A stretch of 64,000 nucleotides of DNA from Phytoseiulus persimilis. Taxonomy: Eukaryota > Arthropoda > Arachnida > Mesostigmata > Phytoseiidae. Under the pieces are notes generated by a model. That model made no database searches. It saw only the letters and a program-made list of their open reading frames with translations, and was not told the origin of the DNA. The position numbers and the translations under genes were made by a program. Location of the stretch: the NCBI GenBank assembly GCA_037576195.1, contig CM075104.1:25188211-25252210 (forward strand), read 5' to 3'. This document shows, piece by piece, positions 1-43,256 of the stretch (the stretch's first letter is position 1; each line of letters starts with the position of its first letter).

Positions 1-3000
1 GTCTCGGAGGCTTTCTTTATGGAACGATTCTCCGAACGTGAATGTGGCTCCGTTATTAGCGGGCACAATTGTTTCTTTACAGACGGGAGAAGGGAAAAGT
101 TCAAAGGGCAAAGAGTGCTCCAGAGCTGAGCAGAGCTTTTTACGGTTATCGTGCTACGTGAGTCCGCCGGCCTTACTCCTCAGAGAGGGTTTATGAGGAT
201 ATTGGAATTTTGATCGTCGACTTTGTTCCATCCGACTTGTGGTCGTCTTCTGAATCTGCTTGCGACCTACTCAGCTTCAGCGCAGGATCGCCGAGCTCGG
301 AAGGGCTCTTCGGTTGTTTTTCAGCGGAACCGACCACAACCTGAAGTCGAATGTATTCGAAAATTTGGCGGAACTTGCTGGGTGAGGTTCGATGCTCAGC
401 GGGGTCGGAACGCGTAGTTGATCACGTGTTCTGATCGAAAGCTGATGACACTCGAAGTGCATATCGATATGTTTCGTGGTTGTGAAGCGTGAAAATCAAA
501 CGCGCTGGGAACGCCTCGGAAACGCGTGCCGTTCGTTGCCGGAGTGCTCACTTCCTCTGGGGAAACCCATCAGTGCGGTCGTCGGGAGGATGTGTGAGGG
601 CGCGGGTACATCGAGAACACCCGATTGTAATTGCTGACTGTTGACATGAAACCGGAGAGAAAAAACTCGTTGGAGTAGCAGACCAACGGAATCCGAGAAA
701 CTCGACAGGGCTCCGATGTCCTGATTTTCTCCCATCTTTCATTTGTGCCTTCCATCTCCTGTTGTGATCAGAGGGTTGGAGTTTGAAAGTCCGCTCGCCC
801 GTCCCCGAAGACGAAGGATCCATTTTTCGTAAAGCGACATCATCATTGTTTCCCTCGGTTTTCGATAAACAAAACCGATTCCAATTATTTACGACCGAAC
901 GGATCAGGTTGGATTGACAGAACGAAGGCCGACAACGGCAGTGAAGAAGAACAAGTTCGGTTTCAAGCCTGGTCATTGAGCCCGATTGTGACGATGACTT
1001 TTCGAGCGGGTACAGTGAGATGGCTCGAGTTCGAACGAGTGTTTGTCGTGAGGTCACGCATCGCGGAGCACTTCCGACGCGCGCTCTTGTGCCCTCCGAA
1101 GGCACATCCCGGCTCGGAAGAGGAGTTTCGAACACGAATTCACGCGTTCGAGCGACATTCAACCCCATGACCACCGATCAAGCTATGAGCTCGATCGGCG
1201 GTGTCGTCACGATTTTCTGAAAGTATGAAATTATTCTTTTTGATCCGTGAATAATTTCTGATCTCTTTCCATGCTCGTGACGCACGGAATCAGGCCCGAA
1301 CTAGCACCAGGTGCACCTCCTGTGTGAATAGGCCCGCGTCAAGATTCGGGCCAGGGAATAAGGAGGTCCGGGCTCGCTGGTTGTACGTAGGAGCTCGTCG
1401 GAGGCAAATCCACCCGAAGGTCATTGAGAAACGGAGGATTCGAGTATTCGATTCTCCATTCCTGAGGAGGAGTTCCTCACCGACGTTCGTCAGTTGTTCA
1501 ATGAGCTTCGAAAGTGTTCCTGGTCAGTGGCAAATGTGGGTGTGTCGCCGAGACACAGGGGATCGAGCTCATGTGTTCATGCGACTGGGTGGCGTCGTAT
1601 TTCCAAACGCTGTGTAACTGTCGGCCGACTCGGCTGCCGCCCGACTGCTGCTGGCTACTCCTGTTCGCTGCCGTCCCGAGGTCGCCAGCCTGCCTGACTA
1701 GCAGCCGGCCTGGGTGGGTTGCTTATCACAGGTTGGCTTCACTCACTCCTCTCTGCGCGGAAGGCGCACAATTCACCACCGGATCCTTAGGTGGTCAGAT
1801 GGCCAATGGTCCGTCGGGATCTCAGCCGGAGAGTCGCCACGGCTTCAGTGATGACCGATGACGGCAGCTTAATTTGAATGTTTTCACCACCGGTGCAATG
1901 GGAGCTCAGTCGCCGCTCGTGCATAGTTCAACCGAACCACGCCACCACCACGATCCAGAAAGCAGGTCTGCACTCTGTCTCACCCGCCAATCCGCCAGCG
2001 GGGCCGGCCGGAACGATGACTGGCAACACTCAATCGGATGACTTCACTAAACTCCTGTTACACTCTTGGAACATGCTTAACCAGACAGCCGCGCGTGCTG
2101 AAAGAACTCCGAGCTTCGGATGCTCTCCCCCGTGGAACTGGCGCTTCTTCCAGAAGAAGGGGCGAATCGCAGAAATCGTTCACGAGCCACATCTGATGAG
2201 ATATGTACTGCAGTCGGATTTCGGTTTCGCCCTAGCCTCCCGTCTTCCCCTGCGTCAATGAAGCAATACTGGTCCTCATGTGTCGAAGCCAGCCCCAACT
2301 GGTCTCGGACCCGAACGCCGCCTCCGTCGCCTGAAAAAAACAACAGGCCAGGAACGATGCGCCAGATCTATCCGCAACGAACCCGGTGTTGCTCATGTCG
2401 TCTATAGGTAGATCGTTTCATTTTGGGCGTTCCCCCAACTGTACCGCTGTGCGGGTGATGAGGTATGTATGGAGAATGTGGATGAGCGAACTGCCAAGCG
2501 GTTGTCAGCTGTCCACGTATGATTCGTCTGCCAGAAGCTGGTTACCCACTTTCCGACGGAAATCCTGGCGTTGAGGAGCTCACAAGTGCTCTCGATCTTC
2601 ATCGACAGGGTGTCGACTGGACAATTATTCTGCGATGATCGAAGTTCCGGGTGTGATGCACGAACGCAGCGTCGGATTCACTTCGAGAACGGTCGGACTA
2701 ATCTGGAGCCAGACGGAGCTCGAGACCTTCCACTCGAAATTTGTAATCCGCGGTCTTCACACACAATTTTCATTCGTTTTGCGTGAGCTCTCCCCGCCGT
2801 GGAACGCTATTCATGGCCGAGGAAGCGTACGCACACATTGACTTCGCGCGCTTATATGAGCAGGGCCAAGGCAAAACCTACTTACTACATACCTGACTCC
2901 TGTCTGATCCTGCAGAGAGAATTCTGAGCACGTACGACTCAGCACAGACCCAACAATGACGTCACAGTGCAATGCATGACTTGAATACTCGGAGAAGTAG

Positions 3001-5244
3001 AAGATTGATTCGGAAACATCCGCAGGAAACACTGGTTGCCAGCAGAGCACCTGATATCCCCAAGAAGTCGCGCGTATTCGTCTGCTCCGTTGTTCCGTGC
3101 TCCCCGTGATCCTCGACTGCTCAAACTCCGCTTTAGTGATTTCCGTCTCCGGACTCTCAGCGTGGCTCCTAGTTATCATGACGGACGTTGGAAACGCTTC
3201 CACAGACTTTGGGCTCAGAGATCCGAAGCCTATCGGTTCCAGTTGGGGAAATGGCTGGAGAGTATTTCGAGATTCCGTTCTCGTAATAATGATTGCCGAG
3301 CTCTGTTGTATACTCAGCGGGCATCGGCGAGTAGATGTTGTGAGACTCTTTGATCTTCAGGCGTTCGCACCTCATCCGGCCAAATGCTGTTGATCTCCCA
3401 GCTAACAACGCAAATCCTTCAAAGGTTCGTTCGTCGACTACCCGGCGGCCGGTCGACCAGCAAGCAAAGGACGACACCAATTACGGGGAGGGCGTTTAGC
3501 TTGGGAGCTAGCGCATTACTTTGTGGGATCATTGAGTCCGCGTTGGAGTTAGCTTACAATTGTGAGCTGCCGAGCCTGCTTTTTCTCATTAGCCCTCTGT
3601 CGATAAACCGGCTTCTTCGAGCGATCCGAACTTTTCTGAGCTCCGCTGCACAATAAAATCCACAGCGGTCAGTTCGACAACATCTGCTGGCAGTGGTTGC
3701 CCTTGACCGGGACTCAGGATCCGATCGGAGGACGTCGAGCCCCGTGTTTTCAAAAACTTACGACGAAGTGCGGCCGGCTGGGATCGGGTTGCCCTCTCTT
3801 TTCTGTTCGTGTGCCGCCGGATCAGACAAGATTGTTAAATAACCGTTCGAAAATAGTGTTGTGACAGATGAACACTCCTCCAGCTATTGCACGACGGTAA
3901 ACAGAGTCACGTGTCAAAACGGGATCAGTCTCCTCCCGGAGCGAATGCGATGTATGATCTTCTCTCGAGTCGGAGCAAGCAACGGGAGACTTAACCGATC
4001 GTTCCTCTGTGGGTTTGCTTCTTAATTGAGAGCCCTCGAAACCGACATCATCCCACCTCCTATTCCCGTGAAGCGGCAGCGCGGGCGGTTCTGGGAGGGA
4101 TGAGTGCCATCGAAGAAGGTTTCGCTTTTCTGCTTCGACATGCCTCCAGGACCTCAAAAGACGGTAACTGTTTCATGTCTACCCCATCAATCCCGAGACT
4201 CCGGGGCCACATCGCTTCCGGCTTCGAACCGATTCCGCAACGGATTCCAGATGATTGGATCGGTCCTCAACAGGGCTGATGCTGTTCTGAGGATAGTTGA
4301 GGGACCGATCTGTGAACTCGGAGCTGTTGATGGTTTTACTCAGGTCAAGACAGAGTATCATTCCGACAAAAAAAGCACTTTCAGTGATGCGATCCGAGAC
4401 AGCCCCGGATATCTCAGGCGCAAGTCGAGATCATCCCAATCAAGACAACTTTGCGGGTTTTCCAGCAGGGTCTCCGATAGACAGTCACTCGAGCATCATG
4501 CGCATTCAGGGCTCGTGCATCTGGGCTGTTCTGCCTCTTCGGAGTTCTCCGGGAAGAACTCATGCGCTCTCAGAGATACTTCCACAAAGCGCGGTTCGAT
4601 CTAGCGCCGGGTGCTCGATCGATATCCGGTAGGATGGAGCGTCTCCTGGGATCCTGCGGACAACTCTTCCTTTCGTGATTGAGAGTAGGAAGTTTCGAGC
4701 GTCTTAATCCACGGAAGGTCCCTCCCATGTCATGAGAATTATCAATCAATGCACATTCCGATGTCGTCCGACTTCGATTCTGCAGACACGTTACGTTCTC
4801 ATACGTCCATCGTACGTGCATCCATCTTCGAGTGTTCGCGACGAGATTTCCTCTCGGTCGGTCGGAGGTCCCTCGCTTTCGAGTTGTGCGTCGCATGAGG
4901 AGAAATGCTTCCCATCCGAGGTTGGAGTAAGACATACTGTAATTGTCCAATTGCGTTGTGGAATCAATTTCGGGGGCCGTCGGGCCAGCTCGTCCGGCGG
5001 CGAGGCCGTTCGATGCTGCGACTGCCCTTTCGGAAATTCGAACGGTTCTCGAGAGAAACTATTGTACGATACACTAGAAACAGAATGAGTGAGTGGGCTC
5101 TCGGGGGACTCCTCGCTTTCTTCCCTGCGAGAATTATTTTCATCACCCTCGTCGGAATTCGGCTTCGAGCCACCAGTCAGCCAAGTTGAGCACTCCCTCC
5201 TGTTCGCTAAATGGCGTTTATTAGCGGCATAGAGTGAGTTTGTG
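1..5244. other. No recognisable gene
   Basis: Several short frames are open on both strands. The longest is 208 codons on the minus strand at 548-1174, with overlapping competing frames. None shows a known motif or a convincing pair of splice sites. AATAAA at about 3653 is not tied to any gene. I see no repeat longer than simple runs. Confidence 0.5.
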
Positions 5245-5286: not shown

Positions 5287-7331
5287 CAAAATAGCGGGAC
5301 CGACCGACTGACAGACGAGCGGACGGCCGAGCAGGAGGAGACCTAAGTGAGGGAAAGCCAGCGGAGCCATGGTAAAGGAGAATAGCAGCTAGCGAATCAA
5401 GAGCGTATAGCGGAATGCATGGAGCGAATGAATCATTGTTCAACTGGCCTCGTGTCACACCACTCCTACGGCTTGATCCCGACAACAAGCTCTGGGCGGC
5501 GGATCTCGTCAACTAGAGGCAAACGCCGCGCGGGGAAAGATTTCCCTGTCACTCTCTGCATTGAACAGCCACAACAGCAGCAACAACCACTCCGACAGGA
5601 ACGGAGGCGACAACTATATCAACGGCGAGAATAGAAGTGGCATCGGAAGCACCGAGGGTTGAAGGGCTTCATCGATGTATGGCTTGCCCCTCGACACCGA
5701 AGGAACGTTCCTCCGATTGCCGATGCGGGACTCCGCTCGAGCGGCCTGATTCCCGGAGTTCCTCGCTCCCAGCGACTCCTTCCGACTTCCTTTTCGGCAA
5801 CTCCCGTGGAATGTCGCGTCTCCGGAACAGCGGGAGCTCAGAATCTCGGCATCTCCGAGAGACCTCGGAAGCGACGAGGGCCGAGCCCTCGAAGCGTTTT
5901 GCTTCTCCCACGCCCCAACCCGGCTTCATTTTGCAGTTTTTTCTTGCTTCGGCACGCACGGTCATCGCATTCTTAGATCACGAACGAGGTGCAGTCGCGC
6001 GAAATGCCTACAGATGGTGGCAGCGGCGGATGGATTTTCTTGGTCATGGCACTGATGCAGATCCGCTTCTCGCTACTTAACTTCCCCGGGTGGCTTGTAT
6101 CGTGTGCGGGTATCGCATCCATATTAGCGAGTTTGCTGTCCACGCGCTCGACACCTCCCCTAATAAATTCTTTCTTCCCTCAGAAGTCAACTGAGTGGGA
6201 GAATTCGGAGTGGTGCCGAGGCTGCTCAGGCTGCCGCTGCTAAACCCAACCACCTGCCGCCCATCTGGCATAGGCAGTGTCCTTACATACAGTTCTCAGC
6301 TCAACGCCACCGCGGGACGGCCGCCGCTGGGGTGGTACCACCACCACCGCCATCAGTATCTCGTTGAAAGATGTGATTCGTGCAGAACTTCATGGCGGAG
6401 CGTCAACTTCTTTGAAAGTAGCAAAGCGAACGCATAACAGACAGCGCCCTATTCACCTGACTTCTAATCAGGCACGGCTGAATGGAAAGGTACGCTCAAA
6501 CTGAAATGGAGCGAACCTACATATTTGTAGGAATTGAGATGCGACCGATGCTAGGTATCCCGTAGGGTCACGACTTGGACGAAAGGCTGAAAGACTTCCC
6601 ACAGAGTCAGACCGCTGAATCCCGAGTTCGGGAGGGTAGCTGAGTTCGGATAGGTGACGCAACTGATCGATTCCGATATCTTCGGGCAGCCGTTGATCGT
6701 GGTGGGCACCTAGCTTCGTCAAAATCTGGGCGCCGATGCTGCGTGCATGTCAGCTGATCCAACAAGCTTGGTTCTTCACCCTTCAGCGGCGATTGAGATA
6801 AATTAGACGATTGCTGCGTAGGTTCACACAGTGTTCAGACCATGCTTGAAGAAAATTTCGACGGTCCGTAGTCAACGCCGCAGGCTGTTAGCGCTGGAGA
6901 AGTGTGTTTGCCGAGCTCATTATTACCAGCGCCCACTCGACTTGCAAAGCCATCCTGTCGAATCATGCTTCTTCCAAGTGCTGCATGCTCGCTTGACAAG
7001 CTGCTTGGTAAGTTGAATCAACTAGGCGCTCATGTGAACGGTTGCGGCTGCCCCCTGTATGTATGAATGTCTTTGTGTATGCTGGCAGTGAGTGAGCGAG
7101 GGATCGAGCAAGCTCACCAATGTGTACAGAAAGCATTAGTCGTCGAGTGGTGACGCCGCGCCGGCTGGTGGTCGCGGCGCGCTGGTCGACCAAGCGGCCA
7201 GCGCGCGTTTGGTCCTCGAGCGATTCCTGTTCTGGTCGGAGCCTTGTGGGAACAAACTCCGTGCCGAAAACAACTGGTAGGCTGAAGGCGATGGTCTCAG
7301 CGAGGAAGCACAGAGGAAACATCGGGAATAA
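5287..7331. other. No recognisable gene
   Basis: Purine-rich and CAG/CAA-rich patches around 5570-5600 and short frames only. The 5637-6080 plus frame (147 codons) has an opposing open frame and no motif. Confidence 0.45.
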
Positions 7332-10300: not shown

Positions 10301-13300
10301 GCTGGAAATCAGCACCGGCCCGGAGGAGCATGCGATCGATGCCAAGAATCGACGTTGCGGTCCACACTCTGAATGTTCCCTCAGGGGCTCTCAGTGTCAC
10401 CCGAGTGCAGACGAGAGGAAAGGACGATCTGTAGGATAGAGTGGACAACGGAGTTTTCAAGAAACCGTGTTCTCTCCGTGTTCTTTCCGGCACAGCAACC
10501 CCCATAATAATCGATGTATGGCAGCCATACAGAGAAAAATCCGCGCCCAGGCTCGCTCGCTGGTCGCTACGAATTCATACGAAGCACGAAACTGTCTTAC
10601 TGACCGTAAAGACATCAACACCGAGAGTTTTCACATGCGTATCTTTCATTGCCGTCAGTGATTGCTGCTCGCCACGGGTGTAAACACTCGAGCAGACAGG
10701 CCGGCGTGCAGGCCGTCGGTCACTAAGAGCGCTGGAGGCACGGATCTGCCCGCTCTAAGCTCGGTCTCATAGAATCGCTGGTCGTTGGCCAGGCAAGCGA
10801 CCAGCTCAGTGAAGCCCCGCCACTAGCCGGGAGCTCTAGTGGTAAAGCGAAAAATAAGAGACGTGATCCCCGTTTTCCCGCTAGCCAGCCCACCCGCCCG
10901 GCTGGTCGCGCTAATTCGGCTTTATTGCCCCATATCTTCATCGGAGGAATCCATTGGCCAAGTCATTGCGGACTTCGCAACCAGCTCTTCTCCGAACAGA
11001 TCGATGCACGGACCAAGATAGATCAGATCGGCAACTTGCAGCCGGAGGAGGCCGACAAAGCTCAACTCCACAGCACCGGCCGCGAGAATCAGTGTTGGGT
11101 TGAGCTATTTACTGAGCTGGTCCTGTCCCTCTCTCGACCAATCGTCTACTCGCAGCTCCTGACGACATCGAGGACAATGTAGGAGGACAGGAGACAGTGG
11201 TCAGGAGTCAGCAAGATAGATGGGCAGCCAGGCCGCTTGCTCGTACGCGTCGACAGAGAACTTCAACCAAACTGTCATCTGTTTCCACACCTGCCAACCT
11301 TGCACTCGCTCGTCGCCAATAATAACCTGAGCGAGCCGATGGGCGGATGCTTCTTCCCCCACCGGCTAATTCACTGTGTCGGCTACGTTCGAGGGAGATC
11401 CTACAGCGGAACCGCGATGGTTTCGCAGCCATCGGCGTCCTCGGTGTGTTTACTCAGCGTCGTCGGCTCCCCGTAAACTTGCACACAGGAGATCCCAGAG
11501 AGGGAAGCAGTGACGCTGTCCGTGCCCTCTTCTACAAGTCTTCCTTGATCGGAGGGAAGCGATTGCTCGATCCTGATAGCCGGCGAGCTAAGAGAGATAT
11601 CGTCCTCTTCCCGGAGACACTAACTGCTGGCGAAAGTCAGACAAGCACTGAGGTCAAGCGGGGTACATCAAGCCGACAATTCAATTAGTATCGAACCCCA
11701 GTAGCCTTTAGTCACAAATTCGGGTGCACCTCCGCAACGCGCACTGCCTCCATCGACGGATTCTCGGTATTTGCGATGATTGTTACTCCCGACTAGGATG
11801 TTGGCCTGGTTCTAGGATCCGGGGGGAGCACTGTGAAGACTCTAAATAAGAAGTCAGTCGAGAACAATTATAAGATGCGCTCATCTAGGGGAGCGCAAGC
11901 GCAATGAGGAGGACAAAGATGAGACAGGCTACCACAGGATCTGAGCGACACAACAGACTCCCGCGAAAAGGGCCCTTAGGGGCCACGTGGTGATCTTCTA
12001 GTGGTAAAAAGTGTGGTGAATTATGCACAGGCTTCACTCCGCCTAATGGTTACTCTTCGTTTGTGGCTGCTCTTTAGGATGCTCCGAGAAGGCTTCACAG
12101 CCTTGCCAACTTCGACTCAGGTCTCGGTTTTACCTAGGTTTCTCTCGTCTGGATATGGGGTCTTGAGTGGGTTGAGCCAAGTATTTCTCAGTCGCTTTTT
12201 CTAAATTCGGAGATGAGGTCGTTCCCTACGAGATTCCTCGATGTATCGCATACCCACAACCACTTCCAATGAAGTCAAGTGTAGATCGGATCAGCTGGGG
12301 AAGACAAGGCCAGTCTCATGGAAATTGACAGCGCTAGAGCTGTTAGGTTCCAGATGGCCACTCGAGAGGCTCTCCTCAACGTAGTTGTGAGTTCTCGAAC
12401 GTCAACTGGAAGTTTGATCAACGGACAGGGCTATATTTCCCCGCAATCCAGAAGCATGCATATAACCAACTGGAGGTTATCTTGATCCCACGAAATTCTT
12501 TGGAATTTCACGGGGTATTCACGGATAAGGTGGGCGCGTAGAGGTCTGCGAATGTGCCACGAAGAACCACGCCCGATATCTAGGCCCATACGCTCTACAT
12601 TGGGGAAATATCTCGTCATATGGGATACCATGTCATGAGTACGCGATTCCTCTCAACTCACGCAGGCGACATCGATGCCAAACCCGTTGGAGACCCTGGG
12701 AGACAGCAATAACTATGTTTGGCTTGGTCGCGACGGATCATCAGGAAAATTAGAAAACCTCTCGGTCGAAACATCGGATGAGTCGCAATGATTCGAAGAA
12801 ATTCGGATTCGGAAAACTTCGTTGCGTGCGAAACACTTCACGGGCTCGCGGCAGCGAGGAAGATAATTATCCTGATACATTTCTCTCGAGGAATATTTTT
12901 GATTGTCCCCGGTCTGAGATACGCTCGTCAACGACCCACCAGACGCGACTGTGAGTCGCCTCTCTCAGAAAGTTCATGATCTGGCCGTGCAACTCGGTGC
13001 CTGTCCCCCTTTTTTTGTTTTCCGAAGGAGGAGGATGTATCTCTCATCCTCTAGATTCGCGACCCATTGGGCGTCATCGATTCATTTATCAAGTACGCAT
13101 TGAAGATGCATCTCCGCCCCTCCTGCCCGGTAGGCTTGTACGTTTTCCACCCTTTCATCTAGCCTTTTCAGTGTTCGCGACTGCATCAATTTATCAAGCA
13201 ACCAAGCGACCCTCCCAAGTCAAGCAGGCAGACCAGCCGCTCTCCCTTACCCGGGCTCGTTTCCAGTTCTTTGTAGCTTTTCTTATGCGCGTCGGGTAAC

Positions 13301-14864: not shown

Positions 14865-14955
14865 ATGACAGCAGGCTTCGTCGTCGAACCTGGTTCCGCC
14901 GAGGAGCCAGCAATCGACGCCACACTGCTGCACTCTCTTGGGCCCAACTTGCGAT
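14865..14955 (+). CDS. Lim3: Probable first coding exon of Lim3
   Basis: An ATG at 14865 opens 30 codons, including the stretch SLGPNLR, and runs into a textbook donor (GTAAGT at 14956). The exon ends in phase 1. The LIM1 exon begins with two bases completing that codon and reads S-T-I-P-K-C, the usual approach to the first LIM cysteine in LHX3-type proteins. The same frame is open upstream to 14739 without another ATG. Support is the donor, the phase and the position; the N-terminus of this family varies, so homology adds nothing. A different upstream exon is possible. Confidence 0.5.
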
Positions 14956-17900: not shown

Positions 17901-20900
17901 TCCAAAAGGGAGCCTGCTCGACCCCTGTGCTCGGAGAGTTTCGACTCCACTCCGGACTCACATGTGAAATTAGAGAGCATCGACAGCCCGAGCTGCAATT
18001 TAGTTGGATATTTCGGGATTAGGGGAACCCTGAGACTGCGGTTTACCACAAGTGCACTCGGAGCCGAAATGACCTCTTCAATTTAGAACACTGTATTTTG
18101 CTCTTTCGCTTCAAAATCCCCTGACTATTGCATCTTAACAATTTTGGATGGTGCAGAAGATTCTTGCCAAAGGGAAATCAGAAGGAAACCCAGGATGCAG
18201 ATCAAGAAATGGGAAAATTATTCCAGGTTGCAGTTTGGAGCCTGAAAGTCGTGGAAGTGAACGGGAGGGTGCAAAACTCCCGCCGCTGAGAAAACAAAAG
18301 TCGCGAATTTCTTATCTCACTCGTGCTTTCGACAGGCTCCTGCTTCGGTTTTCGGAATACACAATTTGGTACGGTGTACTTCCCGCCTGTATGCGATGGA
18401 ACTTCTTCGACGCGATCAAATATCTAGTCACTCAAACCTGTGTCTTGCGTGTTGAATATTCTAGTGCAGAAAATCTAGTTCTTGATATTGATATTGGAGC
18501 TAGACGCCTAAATCGGTGTATCATGCATTGTGAGAATCAGTTAGGGCTAGTGTTTTCGCACCGTATGATAAAAGTCTTCATCCCTGAGTCTCGGGAGAGG
18601 CACACAATCCAATATACAGTCATCTGTGCTCACCACGACTCACTCGAACTTCTGTAGCCGCTCTGCTGGGTTCAAGACTCTTCGTTCACAAGCACACCTG
18701 AACGTTGCTTTGGAGCGATTGAAGCTCTGACTGCACGATACATCCAGGACTAGCTCAACGTGCTTCAACGAGGTCACGAATGAAATGCCTCCGTACGGTC
18801 CTGGGGGTCTTCGTTGCACGAGTTTTCCGTCATGGTGATGACTGTGCTGAAAGTTTGTGCTGAAAAGCTTTATATACATGCTCCCTGATCTCATGGGTTG
18901 TACATGTGGATTCCGGTCGCAGTCTGCTGGGATAGCAAACTCGCTAACTGACTGCTCGGCTGCTACGCTGACCGGCTGGCCGAATGGCTCCCTCCCTCGC
19001 ATCTAATTCACTTAGTTGAGGACGCTGCCACAGACACGTACACTGATATCTACCACGCGCTGAACCATGCTGCATGGGGTTGAAAGCGTTTGTGCGTGCC
19101 ATCTTTCCAAGCCATGTCTGGCTTCCTGAACGGGAGCCTCCTGGTCCCTGAGTATCGGAACTCCGGAAGTATTTCCTTTTCCGCTGAAGCGATACGATGA
19201 CTCATTCCTCACGGCGGCAACAGGCCTCCTTGCAGGGGCATAATGGATAATTAGCGAATTTTCTGAAGCGGCTATTCCCGAGTTTCTGGGCTGGTTATCC
19301 ATTCTTCGCTCTCAAAATCACAGTTTTTTTGTTCCTACCGACGGGATCTTGGCTCTAGTTACCACTGCGCAGTTACTCGATGCGATTCGCTGACGGATCC
19401 GAACGATGACCGTGCACAGAAATTCAGAGAACAGGCCTGAAGAGAACGGTTAAAGTTGAAATCTCCCGAGTAGAAGAGTAATAACAGATCTTTCCGGTTG
19501 AAATTTCAGCCACGATTCCGAAATGCGCCGCTGCGGTGACATAATTCTGGACCGATTCATCCTGAAGGTCCTCGAGCGGCCGTGGCATTCGAAGTGCTTA
19601 AAATGTTCTGACTGTCAAGCTCCGTTGGCGAACAAATGCTTCGCTCGAGCCGGTCATCTCTATTGCAAAGACGATTTTTTCAAGTGAGTAGCGTATAATC
19701 TAAGCTTTCGAGCTGCAGATGACATTTCAGGTGATCCTTAATCGGAGCACTCGACCAATGCGGCAATGCCACTCCCGAATAGATGCCGAGTTCCTCGGGA
19801 GTCCTCGATGAGTTTTCTGTGGATTTGGATCATAGGCACCGTTAGAGCGATTCCGTGCCGAGATGCGATTGGTGCCACTACAGTATGCAGTTTGCTTTCA
19901 GAAGGTACGGTACGAAGTGTGCCGGCTGTGAGCAAGGCATTCCACCCACGCAAGTTGTCCGACGGGCTCAGGAGAACGTCTATCATCTGGCGTGCTTCTC
20001 CTGCATCCTTTGCAAGCGCCAGTTGAACACAGGAGATGAATTCTATCTCATGGAAGACAATAAACTCGTCTGTAAAGCCGATTACGAAGCCGCCAAAGCA
20101 AGAGGTTCGTGATCTGACTTGTTCCAGAACTTGTTTTTTCGTGTTATCGTCGTCCGAGGCTCCGAAAGTCTGAATTATTTCGTCTGAGGGAAAGTCTACT
20201 CGGCCACCGCGCTCTTGGAGCGTCGAAGTCGCTAAGGGAGGGTTCCAGCCGAAGTTTTTCCCCGCCTGAAAATTCCCCGCTCGACCGCAAGATCATTCAC
20301 CCGCGCAGCTTGACAGGAGTCAACAGAAACGAGCGGACCCCTCTCTTCACTGGCAGTGGAAGTCCCCAGAAGTTTCAGATCAAGCCAATGTTTTTTGTGA
20401 CTCGCCATCCGGTCCGGACTCGCTGTGTATTACGTCACGACCACGTTTGAACATTCTCCGTTGACGACTTCCACGCCAAGCTACGTTTCTATTCTGTTCT
20501 TCACTAATGGACGCAATTCAATCAATCGTTGCCTTGCGGGTTACTCGAGGGAAGAGCCGACACGTCATATGACGCCGAAACCTCTTCGAATCTCAAATTG
20601 ACGAGCTCGTGTTGGACTTCAACCAAAAGAACAATCGTTACTTAAGAGCAGCGGCCAAAATTTCCCAGAACTTTTTCTGCGTCCCTCGCATCCCACGATC
20701 ATGAAGTGTGGACAGAAGATGCGGTTCCTCGCTCATGGATTCTACGACTCCAGTGAACCATGCAGGAACATTGGCCCAATCGGGTTCGTTTCCAATGGCA
20801 TAGTAGAATAACTTCCGTTCCATCTCTTCACAGAGGGGTAGCACGAAACGACCTCGTACGACAATCACTGCAAAGCAGCTGGAAACATTGAAATCAGCTT

Positions 20901-23900
20901 ATAATCAGAGTCCTAAACCCGCGCGGCACGTGAGGGAGCAGCTATCGCGAGATACAGGTGAGCCATCGCTGAGTTTCAGCTCTCAGCGCTAATTTTCCCG
21001 GAGGTCACACCTTGGAATGGATTGTTTGCCGCGGTTAGCGGTAACATTCCAGGAAAACATGCTCCACATACCATCAGGGGTGGCCTCGAGGACCGTCGTT
21101 CTGACCTCAGCCAACCGTTCCATGGTGTCACGAGACGTTTCTCTCGTCAGAGGCTTCGGTCTGGGTTTCCAATGCCGAAATCGTAAAAAAAATCTCTTCA
21201 TCCCATCCCTCCAGGTTTGGACATGCGAGTGGTTCAAGTTTGGTTCCAAAACCGGAGGGCCAAAGAGAAGAGATTGAAAAAAGATGCAGGAGGCAAAGCT
21301 CGTTGGGTTGCCAACGCGGGAGACTACTACGGAGCTCCCCCATCGGGCGGTGGAAGGAAACGACCGCCGAGTTCCGCAGACTCCAAACATGGAGACGATT
21401 CCAAGGACAACAGTCACGCTCTGTACCAAGGTGAGTTGCGAAGGACTCCGTTCCTTGATCCGAACCGCGGACGAGGCCCGCGATCGATTCTGACGAAAAC
21501 AAGGGTCCAGAGTTTCAATCACTCTGAGTGACTCCGATCCAAAGAGCGAACGAACCTCTTTCCACCGTGTTTGCGCGCGGAAAAGGTTGTTGCCCGGTTG
21601 GTGAAAATTACAGCAGTCGGAAGAGATGAATCTGAGAATTTGAAGAACAGACAGTGAACTACAGGCACTGAGCCATTGGGATGCGCAAATCGAGAGCGCC
21701 CCTTTATTTTACCCTCGAAGCGGCGGGACGAAAAGCAAACAATATGTACTGCTGTTTTTGGCAATGACATCCGAACGAGAGGAGCAAATCGAGTTATGGC
21801 CGGGCAACAGCACCAGCCGCGGCACCTTGATAACACCTCGTCGTCGATTCTATTCTCTTCCCCTCCTACTAGTCCTGCCTTGTATCTATCCATCTATCCG
21901 GAGAGAGAGAGAGAGGGAACGAGCGACTGAACGAACGAGTACTTCTCTGTGCTGCTCTCCTTGATCTTTTGCTCCTGTCTCGCTCTGGTTGTCACTTTTT
22001 AACACGGCCTGGCAGGCAATTTGATTATGGCTCCGACGCCATTCTTGTGCTCCCGACGCTCCTCCGGCCGCTCATGCTCATTCACTCTCTAATTTCCCGA
22101 TTCCTCCCGAGCTTTGGCGGGAAGCTTTGTCTTTGCAGTCGCTGAACAGCTCGAGCATGGAACAGATTTCCGATTGCTCTGCCGTCGAACTCGAGTGTGT
22201 TCCCAAACCTCGAGTTCGGACGACGGCCGATGCGATGCCTACAGCCTCGTAAAGAGCTGCTCGACGCCCCGCCGTCCCCGTTGAAATCCAGACTACCAAA
22301 CTCGAAGTGCTGGCACCTGGAGCGCTTCAAGGGACTGCAAAATGACTTGCCTAATTCGATAAATTCGAAGCCAGATGCCTGAGAGGGCTTCCACGGCAAC
22401 AGACTTGGACGCCAGACCTAACTCCCAAGCCCTCGGTCCGAGTGAGAGAAGATTTCGCGTCAGCATGCAGAAATCAGAGACTGAAACCGTCTCCTCCTCG
22501 TAACTGACTGACGGGGACGAGCGTCGTTTTGTTTCTCATCCCCCGACTGGAGGGCTTTTCGTTTCTCCTCCAACAATAGTTACACAACCCGAGCGAGCAG
22601 TGTTTGTTGCTCGAGGGTTTGGGAAAACCTCGATGCGACTTTGCAGTAGAAGCGATTCAAAAGATATCGGAACTCGACTGCGGGGAAACGAAGCGGAGGC
22701 ACTCAGCGAAATTGCTGAAAGAGCTCGCAGTCGCTCTCCCACAGACGGACGAACCGACAGGCCCACTGACGGATGGACGAACGAACGAACGAACGGACAA
22801 ACAGATCGACAGGGCCCAGCCCAAGTCACAACCTACGACGACCACCTGGTGTCCGCCGGGTAACGTGGTGCTCGAGCTACCGACCCACGAGCTCCAAAGT
22901 ATGAGTCGCCACGGTACTCTCGGTGCATCGAGAGTTTTGTGGTCCGGCGAAGTGAACTCGAATGTCTTGTCATCCTCGAAGTGGCGGAGGGAACTCGTTA
23001 GGCGAAATATCTAATCAACACGAGGAACTCAAAATAGGAGCGAACGAGAAGTCGGGACATATTCGCGCCGGGTCCTTCGATCACGGCGCAGCCACATAAG
23101 ATTGGTGACATCCCCCTGGGGAAGGATGTGAACCTGGCGGTGTATCCAAGTGCGCCAGTCCGTGTGCGAGTGTGCCCTCCCTGGAGCGAGTGACAACCAA
23201 CCCACCCACCTACGCGGCGACCAGTCGGCCGGCCGGCCGGCCGGCCGACCAGCCAACCAAGCAAGGCGACAGTCAGGGAGGGCAGCCAACAAGGAAGCGA
23301 AGCACGGGCTGGTTCGTGGCGCCCTCCTCCTCGTCGTCGTCCTTTGTCCGCCTGTCTGTCTGTCTGCGCGTTCGTCCGTTTCAGTTCGCCGTAGGGAGTT
23401 TGTTCTCCTTGCTGTTGGCTGCTCCTGCCGCCACACAGTTGCCCTCCTCCCGGCGCTCTGCCCTCTCCGGAAAAGTTAATCAGCAAATTGTACCCGAAGG
23501 CTCGCGGTCTTTCGCTGTCTCTCCCTCTTTCGCTGCTGGGTTCGCTCTCCCTACTCGCCCTCTTGGCTGTACGCGTGTCCCCGGGTGCGTCTGTGAGCCG
23601 GTTTGCGTATGCGGTGGTGGGAAGCCAAGCTAGCGACCGAAAGACCCGAGGGTGAGCGGGTGGGTGGGTAGCTGGTCGTGCATTTGAGAACAGAGTTGTT
23701 GCTGCTGCCGCAGACGGCGCTAACCCTCCCGCTCCCCCGCTATTCCTCATTCGTTCCCTGGCGGTTCTTTCGGTCGGCGGGATGACGGTCCGGCTGGCTG
23801 CTTGCTTTGCTCGGTTCGTCCCATCCGGACGGATTCTCCGGACGGGCTTTGAGGCTGTCGGACGAGACCGCCGAGCGACGGACGCGCTAGTTGGCCGTCG

Positions 23901-24640
23901 CGTCCGCGAGTTCCCTATCGTCGTTCTTGTTTCTCTCGTCTTCGCAGCTGTCAAGAGCAAACGAGACGATTGTTTTTTTCCAACGATGCGCTCCAGTCGA
24001 TCGCGCGAAATCCGAACATAATTGCTTCCAGACATGGGGTAGACGGGGCGACACACATTCCAGCTATTCCCGGCGTAGCAGGTCTCATCCTTGAACTTTT
24101 TCCAGATGAAATATCCGAGCCTTTTAGCACTGGAGGATGTGGTACTCACGGGCTCGGGGAATGTCTTCAGATTCGGAGGAAGACGACCATATCATTGACG
24201 ACGATTCCGATCCAAACAGACCACAGTCCGCATATTCTGGATACAATCTTGCGTCCCCTGCGCACACCCCAACGGGTGAGTCAATGTTTTCTGTTCCAGT
24301 GTATGGGTAGGTGGCGAACAGTCTGCAGAACAGGGAACATGATCCGTCGCTACAGCTCGAGCTGGGGTTCACGGCTGGGGAGGCATGTCAAGTCGAAAAC
24401 TCGATATTCGCAACTCGCGGATCACTGACGCAGTGGAATATTTTCGCAGGGGGTCCGACGGTGGCGCAGCATTTCGGTTCGTTCACTTCGCACTTCGCAG
24501 CCGCGGCATTTACGACAGGAACTACCACTGGAGGGGGCGCGATCGGTCCTGCCGACCTCCCGCCATCACCCGCGTCCTGGCTGGAAGACATAGACCATCC
24601 AACAACACATCAACATCTCAGCTCGCCTTCGTATCACTAA
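14865..24640 (+). CDS. Lim3: LIM-homeodomain transcription factor, Lim3 (LHX3/LHX4 class), seven recognised exons
   Basis: Coding exons as read: 14865-14955, 19510-19683, 19902-20104, 20834-20957, 21215-21430, 24171-24275 and 24450-24640, ending in TAA. Introns begin GT and end AG. Exon 2 gives LIM1 ([16 protein letters not shown] and later Zn ligands), exon 3 gives LIM2 ([31 protein letters not shown]), and exons 4-5 give the homeodomain ([16 protein letters not shown], then [21 protein letters not shown]). Exon 6 is acidic. Exon 7 carries the LHX3/4-type C-terminal motif [11 protein letters not shown]. The LIM residues and homeodomain identify the Lim3/LHX3/LHX4 subclass, a nuclear DNA-binding regulator of motor and interneuron identity in animals; LIM domains bind cofactors such as Chip/LDB. 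Exon 1 is inferred. It has an ATG, a perfect GTAAGT donor and a phase that fits exon 2, but lies 4.5 kb away and is not conserved enough to prove. Two defects are described separately: a one-base loss in LIM1 and a phase mismatch between exons 3 and 4. A function-killing mutation and a sequencing error cannot be told apart here. Confidence 0.93.
14956..19509 (+). other. Lim3 intron 1 (inferred), 4.55 kb
   Basis: This long first intron is where regulatory elements of a developmental regulator would be expected. I see no recognisable exon in it. The longest ORF on the + strand is 18148-18657 (169 codons, ATG start), without recognisable motifs and not above chance length. AATAAA occurs at about 16850 in no gene context. 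Confidence 0.45.
19510..19683 (+). CDS. Lim3: Lim3 exon 2, LIM1 zinc finger, disrupted by an apparent 1-nt deletion
   Basis: The acceptor TTTCAG is followed by codons for I-P-K-C-A. The frame then fails: the reading I-P-K-C-A-A-A-V-T ends at TAA, whereas the rest of LIM1 (C-G-D-I-I-L-D-R-F onward) lies one frame away. The family expects C-A-G-C-G-D, which needs one more G in GCCGCTGC near 19527-19534. The exon is 174 nt; 175 would restore the phase into exon 3. The alternative frame that is open across the exon reads E-M-R-R-C-G-D and lacks the first zinc cysteine. This is therefore either a sequencing or assembly error or a real allele without a functional LIM1. Confidence 0.88.
22776..22798. 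repeat. CGAA tetranucleotide tract
   Basis: About five CGAA units in Lim3 intron 5. Confidence 0.85.
23227..23246. repeat. (GGCC)5 tract
   Basis: Five perfect GGCC units, self-complementary, flanked by CCAGTC and GACCAGCC. Confidence 0.9.
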
Positions 24641-33019: not shown

Positions 33020-33394
33020 ATGTTCCATAAGAAGTTCGTGGTATTCTCTTTCTTGCTCGCTGTGTTCACAACTGCGAGCGCGCAGTTTTACGGTGGCGGG
33101 TACGGGAGCTACGGAGGCAGCGGACGTGGATCATACGGCGGTTACGGTAGCGGACGTGGATCCTACGGCGGATACGGAGGTTATGGCAGTGGTCGATACG
33201 GCAGCGGAGGATACGGAGGTTACGGCAGCGGCGGATATGGAGGTTACGGCAGCGGCGGATACGGAGGTTACGGCAACGGCGGATACGGAAACTACGGCAA
33301 CGGCGGATACGGAAGCTACGGCAACAGTGGATACGGAGGCTACGGCAACGGCGGATACGGAGGTTATGGTGGGAGCGGTGGATATTATGGTTGA
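33020..33394 (+). CDS. Secreted Gly-Tyr-rich protein, 124 aa (paralogue 2)
   Basis: The signal peptide covers residues 1-21 (two lysines after the first Phe-His, a Phe/Val/Leu core, cleavage after A-S-A). The mature chain begins QFYGGG, the same junction as in the 27040 gene. It then repeats GGYGSYGG, GSGRGSYGGYG and GNGGYGGYG units of about 7-9 residues and ends GYYG. It differs from paralogue 1 in using Ser and Asn as spacers where that one uses Arg, so it is less basic and longer. It has no cysteines. The function is probably structural (cuticle or cement) or antimicrobial, and the evidence for either is only compositional. The gene is compact: the leader intron ends 20 nt before the ATG and AATAAA lies 77 nt after the stop. 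Repeat number may vary between alleles. Confidence 0.88.
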   Translation: MFHKKFVVFSFLLAVFTTASAQFYGGGYGSYGGSGRGSYGGYGSGRGSYGGYGGYGSGRYGSGGYGGYGSGGYGGYGSGGYGGYGNGGYGNYGNGGYGSYGNSGYGGYGNGGYGGYGGSGGYYG

Positions 33395-37400: not shown

Positions 37401-37905
37401 TCACTGCTGAGGAGCTCTCGCTGTCATGAAACAAGCTTTTAACCTCCCCATGAAAGCTTTCTGAGAGTCATCCAAGGCACTCTTTGCCAGTTTCTCCGCC
37501 ATGCACGCTTTGAGCAATATCTCACGTCGGTCCACCTGTAAGCAATCACAAATCTCGAATGGTTGGATTTGACGAGCGCAGCGATTTTGAAAATTACAGT
37601 GAGCGAGCAGGGAGATGAAATGAGTTTCAATGAATCACCTCGTCAGCTGGCACTTCCTTCACTTTATCGCCGCAGTCATGGAAGGCGGGCATTGCGAAGT
37701 CGACCACGGTTTGAGATTGTTCTGCGGTCATGCCATCCGCGGATTTGACAAGACAGTCCTTCGCGGTCTTAGTGATCACCTCCGTTAGCTTAGTAAGCTT
37801 CGCTTCCGGCAGGCTCAGTTTAGATAGAGTTCCTTGCAGCTGAGCAATGATTTCCTGAGATGAGCCGATCGCCAGAACGGCGGCGATGACCACAACGTAT
37901 CTCAT
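37401..37905 (-). CDS. Small secreted four-cysteine protein, 133 aa, family not recognised
   Basis: Coding exons on the minus strand are 37905-37639 and 37535-37401, with an intron (37638-37536) in phase 0 flanked by GAG|GTGATT and TTACAG|GTG. An untranslated exon (start near 38067, donor after 38042) is joined through intron 38041-37916, whose acceptor CCACAG lies 10 nt before the ATG. Residues 1 to about 17 are a signal peptide (MRYVVVIAAVLAIGSS). The mature chain looks alpha-helical and is rich in Lys, Glu, Ala and Leu. It has four cysteines in the contexts KDCLV, HDCGD, KACMA and KACFM, which could form two disulphides. The layout recalls small helical secreted proteins of arthropods (binding or antimicrobial proteins with paired cysteines), but I recognise no family and assign no function. 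TATA box, three exons, stop and polyA signal are all present, so the gene appears intact. Confidence 0.85.
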
Positions 37906-38090
37906 GGCGGCGATTCTGTGGAGACACACGTGAGACTCATTACCACCACCAGATTCGATTCAATCGGAGACACATGAATCGAATCATACGTTGGTACGCC
38001 ACTCCACTGTAAGAGCTCCAGTCAGCTCATCGAATACTCACTTCGATCTATCGCAGACAGATCCTTTGAGCGACCGATGTCAGGGGCTCC

Positions 38091-40885: not shown

Positions 40886-43256
<2,371 letters not shown>

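Follow-up and report, generated by a model that had tools for sequence, protein, structure and literature searches.

The Lim3 locus of Phytoseiulus persimilis raises the question of whether one base missing from the first LIM domain (LIM1) of this gene is absent from the organism or only from its assembled sequence. The locus lies in the window analysed here, a 64,000-nucleotide stretch (C4:25188211-25252210) of an assembly of 181 Mb in 127 contigs. Five bases separate the first two LIM1 cysteine codons, where relatives have six. From the sequence of the gene we infer that the base is very probably missing from the assembly and not from the organism, in which case the chromosome would carry an ordinary functional Lim3. 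The elements of the break are as follows (positions are those of the window):

19524..19534, forward strand: the lesion, comprising the first LIM1 cysteine codon (TGC, 19524-19526), five bases and the second cysteine codon (TGC, 19532-19534); direct reading and alignments
19542..19544, forward strand: TAA closing the T-I-P-K-C-A frame, codon 11 when T (19512) is taken as codon 1; direct reading

Both cysteine codons lie inside exon 2, with 8 bases from the start of one to the start of the other, and the sequence at 19510-19544 reads CC ACG ATT CCG AAA TGC GCC GCT GCG GTG ACA TAA. A preliminary description of the locus had stated that the frame opening LIM1 runs into a nearby TAA while the rest of the domain continues one frame away, and this was confirmed by three-frame reading; the displaced remainder of LIM1 is open as far as the donor GTGAGT that follows 19683. 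Pfam LIM matches this open frame over profile positions 3-56 of 58 (56.8 bits), and LIM2 over profile positions 1-56. Once X is placed at the broken codon, IPMCAGC of Lhx3 (PDB 2rgt and 2jtn) and IPQCAGC of Lhx4 (3mmk) are matched with no gap, at E values of 1.2e-63 to 1.3e-62, about 10 bits above the frame as assembled. The break is located within 19527-19531. An added G, as proposed in the preliminary description, restores C-A-G-C (found in Lhx3/Lhx4, in Lim1 and in Lim3's own LIM2) together with the phase into exon 3, but G is not uniquely required, and other bases likewise preserve both cysteines.

By the likeness of the remainder outside the first C-x-x-C, the gene is placed as a Lim3/LHX3-4 orthologue, and its earlier naming as Lim3 is upheld by a structure search as well as by Pfam. 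In this family comparison, which covered solved structures only, the spliced LIM1-LIM2 segment matched 38 PDB sequences, the best four being Lhx3 chains (2rgt, E 1.3e-60; 2jtn, E 5.8e-60) and Lhx4 chains (3mmk and 6cme, E 2.1e-59), and the next relative was ISL1 (E 2.8e-29). The two tandem LIM domains are therefore closest to Lhx3/Lhx4, and a Pfam Homeodomain follows downstream, in frame and split across two exons (profile positions 3-36 and 38-57). The complete set of LIM1 zinc ligands is lacking at the first C-x-x-C, as no single frame in the assembled sequence reads both cysteines; we judged this shortfall to be due to error and not to a family difference. The exons of the gene are as follows (a slash marks an exon boundary):

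19510..19683, forward strand: exon 2 (LIM1), acceptor ...TTTCAG/CC, donor TTCAA/GTGAGT; direct reading, Pfam and exon joining
19902..20097, forward strand: exon 3 (LIM2), the 3' end being one of two in-frame choices; Pfam and exon joining
20834..20957, forward strand: exon 4 (first part of the homeodomain), its start shifting by +2 bases with the other exon 3 end; Pfam and exon joining
21215..21430, forward strand: exon 5 (end of the homeodomain and following region); Pfam and exon joining
24171..24275, forward strand: putative exon 6 (acidic stretch), from frame and splice sites
24450..24640, forward strand: last exon, ending SSPSYH-stop; exon joining

Joining 19523-19683, 19902-20097, 20834-20957, 21215-21430, 24171-24275 and 24450-24640 yields 993 bases, or 330 codons and a stop, and no further lesion was found in exons 2-7 in this frame joined from the ATG at 19523. 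Exons 3 and 4 can be joined from a GC donor (AAA/GCAAGA) or a GT donor (TTC/GTGATC), each in frame and open. Within 20085-20110, a further GT at GAG/GTTCGT scores only 0.45, and by eye it has no in-frame join to nearby acceptors. The tail of the last exon gave no match in a Pfam search; we take it to resemble the end of LHX3.

In the LIM1-LIM2 stretch 84 of 110 residues are identical to the Lhx3 chain of 2rgt, and Lim3 appears from its sequence to be visibly constrained before as well as after the break. With this identity and no second lesion in exons 2-7, a pseudogene or gene-wide decay was rejected. An old lesion would be incompatible with the conservation that persists in T-I-P-K-C-A before the break and in LIM1 after it, and since there is no other lesion either, the break is either very recent or not present in the organism at all. 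An isolated one-base break in a gene that is otherwise intact (exons 2-7) is what an assembly error would leave.

A very young lesion could be a real one. The sequenced individual or colony might carry a recent loss-of-function allele, probably heterozygous, which was picked by the assembler; the surroundings of the lesion, still conserved, are as expected of such an allele. We regard this as unlikely, though it is the chief competitor of an assembly error. A null allele should be rare, its capture in a reference was judged less likely than a residual indel, and no alternative haplotype of exon 2 was found in the assembly, which also counts against it. A search of window 19440-20110 against the assembly DNA (E 0.001) returned, besides the self match, only the Lim1 paralogue (72%), so that we rejected the presence of another, intact copy of Lim3 or of an alternative haplotype, and a 27-base pattern with one base added had no exact match in the assembly. 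Lim3 appears to be single copy.

Assembly error is the best explanation because the shortfall is isolated, Lim3, an essential developmental regulator of nerve cells, is strongly conserved and single copy, and there is no decay on either side. The base was probably dropped during sequencing or when the consensus was called, for instance if a GG or CC pair was read as one, and the true protein would then have its usual C-x-x-C, with both LIM domains normal. If so, the consequence is for annotation only: gene models built on the assembly may give a truncated Lim3 or place its start at an incorrect ATG, and in comparative counts Lim3 could be entered as a loss. That error is preferred to a null allele reflects what is generally expected, not something measured.

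Several observations weigh against an error. The context of the site is not a long homopolymer, and the window shows no shortage of the motif GCCGGC (27 occurrences against 18.5 expected from base composition), for which reason systematic loss at this motif was rejected. The coding sequence of the assembly also looks good, with one clean break besides that of Lim3 in 147.2 kb of conserved domain sequence, which makes an error at any given gene improbable a priori; and this single break, which lies among related kinesin copies on an unplaced contig, could itself be a real pseudogene.

These figures come from a survey of match tables of four conserved families (147 kinases, 19 chaperonins, 27 HSP70 and 74 kinesins, 267 matches in total), read by eye for adjoining pieces in different frames without room for an intron. 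The kinase part comprises 124 scored candidates out of 576 found at first look, and 67 LIM matches were left out of the count. One clean one-base break in 267 matches corresponds to a 95% interval of about 0.2 to 38 per Mb, a rate that is a lower bound, as breaks near domain edges, like that of Lim3, would escape. The rarity of such breaks in these families is a point in favor of a real null allele in Lim3. The survey establishes that the assembly contains clean one-base breaks; that they are errors is not proved thereby.

The break found is in a kinesin on contig C8 (56700-57200, reverse strand), an unplaced contig of 75 kb, where one base is lost in a run of A inside the P-loop; in two sister kinesins on the same contig the P-loop motif is intact. 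The three related copies are located close together, within C8:41219-57067. Beyond the tables we read as DNA CCT-gamma, one HSP70, six partial kinases, one kinesin and two close pairs. The frame change in CCT-gamma is an intron, and the close pairs are, by eye, ordinary introns. For five of the partial kinases tblastn placed the missing part in a separate piece, the gap being wide enough for an intron, and for the sixth (L066) it found no continuation; the kinesin has six stops within its match. The HSP70 copy, at C3:20348714-20350297, has a frame that ends early, and no domain end is recognisable by eye in its other frames. A sweep of 49 loci flagged one place, the tail of locus L035, which was not counted as a clean break. 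At about 2840-3130 of that locus, beside an intact kinase, lies a kinase-like stretch that has decayed, with several stops and a change of frame.

The preliminary description had considered that a different exon boundary might keep all LIM1 cysteines in frame without an added base. Between 19505 and 19600, AG dinucleotides start at 19508, 19566, 19575 and 19593 only, and no acceptor AG bypasses the break yet keeps both cysteines. Canonical splicing cannot rescue LIM1, because both cysteine codons share one exon and there is no AG between 19509 and 19566; the different boundary is therefore excluded for GT-AG splicing.

What the lesion would do to the protein, were it real, depends on how exon 2 is entered: phase 2 alone reaches the long frame, and phases 0 and 1 meet a stop. 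A scan for ATG-to-donor candidates starting at 5-19.5 kb with a donor score >2 listed 14 first exons, seven in phase 1, five in phase 0 and two in phase 2. Of the donors, the two that score highest are those of the phase-1 candidates 6965-7007 and 14865-14955, though the top combined score is that of a phase-0 candidate (12354-12386). A nearer first exon, an ATG frame at about 19107-19169, was set aside for its donor score of -2.4. One of the phase-1 candidates is the following:

14865..14955, forward strand: candidate first coding exon, 30 codons and 1 base, donor GAT/GTAAGT; from the ATG-to-donor scan

Its donor (4.4) is the second strongest and it is second in the combined ranking, with a coding score near zero (0.1). 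In fly Lim3A, exon 1 has 109 coding bases, or 36 codons and 1 base, according to an excerpt of PMC2935391. By analogy we infer that this junction corresponds to the one before exon 2, which would make the first intron phase 1. When 14865-14955 is joined to exon 2, the product would end after 41 codons. The preliminary description had left the choice between a reference error and an allele without a functional LIM1; error is favored here, though unproven, and the second option is understated: because entry in phase 1 or phase 0 runs into a stop, the probable outcome of a real lesion would be truncation of the entire Lim3 protein and not the removal of LIM1 alone.

Entry in phase 2, or translation from the ATG at 19523, defines another reading, in which the change is fixed and the species makes a Lim3 protein (M-R-R-C-G-D-I-I...) that is missing the first LIM1 zinc ligand; one LIM1 zinc module is proposed to be weakened, with LIM2 and the homeodomain normal. 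The ATG at 19523 is in frame, the frame is open from the acceptor (H-D-S-E-M-R-R-C), and the two phase-2 candidates among the 14 would lead into it. The alternate translation form of LHX3 is without LIM domains. That LHX3 has an alternate translation form, known from the title of a reference cited in PMC3701669, also speaks for this reading. Nevertheless, the other 12 of the 14 candidates, including the two with the strongest donors, lead into a stop, as would phase 1 as in fly Lim3A. T-I-P-K-C-A still reads as the conserved start of a Lim3 LIM1, where drift would be expected if it were bypassed, and the other LIM1 ligands are kept, so that the domain looks selected as a whole. We consider it highly improbable that the change is fixed, and just as hard to credit that the species lives with a disabled first LIM1 zinc module in Lim3, for example through an isoform starting at the ATG at 19523 or farther downstream. 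If the change were real and fixed, neuron specification in this species would proceed without need of an intact Lim3 LIM1, and it would become questionable whether an old neuron-identity regulator has to bind zinc through its LIM1.

Restoration of LIM1 after transcription, by ribosomal frameshifting or RNA editing, is the last alternative. On direct reading, a -1 step at the GCC codon would bring back both cysteines, a one-base backward slip after GCC giving C-A-R-C-G-D. The same reading finds no X-XXY-YYZ slippery heptamer in the zero frame at the site, and programmed -1 frameshifting was rejected on this ground; we know of no frameshifting or editing mechanism of this kind for LIM-homeodomain genes, although no search was aimed at one. 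The probability of such restoration is, in our view, close to nil.

An Rfam scan of the window gave no matches at gathering score, and Pfam gave none for ten neighboring open frames out of 181 listed. An open frame at 33020-33391 (forward strand), with a signal-peptide-like start, G-Y-G-rich repeats and no Pfam match, looks like it encodes a secreted or cuticle-type protein. A small open frame at 37630-37959 (reverse strand) also has a signal-peptide-like start (MRYVVVIAAVLAIGSSQ...) and no Pfam match. The piece searched of an open frame at 42260-42754 (forward strand) had no Pfam match; a stretch within this frame presumably looks like the end of prostaglandin E synthase 2.

In its general plan the gene is like vertebrate LHX3 and LHX4 and Drosophila Lim3, with two LIM domains followed by a homeodomain, and the phase-1 first intron of fly Lim3A would be a further likeness. 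The difference is the single base that the assembled Lim3 lacks between its first two LIM1 cysteine codons. The Lim1 (LHX1/5) paralogue of the same genome, which we name from its likeness and presume to be Lim1, has a homologous LIM1 exon with 72% DNA identity. It differs in that the corresponding position reads AATGCGCGGGCTGCG and is longer by one base, with six bases between the cysteine codons (C-A-G-C) and the frame intact. According to a figure legend of PMC3405102, zinc coordination in mouse Lhx3 begins with residue C34; being the first ligand, the first LIM1 cysteine would be its equivalent, and translation from the ATG at 19523 (M-R-R-C-G-D...) would be without it. The closest parallel to the break is provided by residual indels of long-read assemblies, which fragment genes and, as described in an excerpt of PMC12007338, cause frameshifts and premature stops. 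The likeness is in the isolated loss of one base within an otherwise intact conserved gene; the Lim3 site differs in lying outside a long homopolymer.
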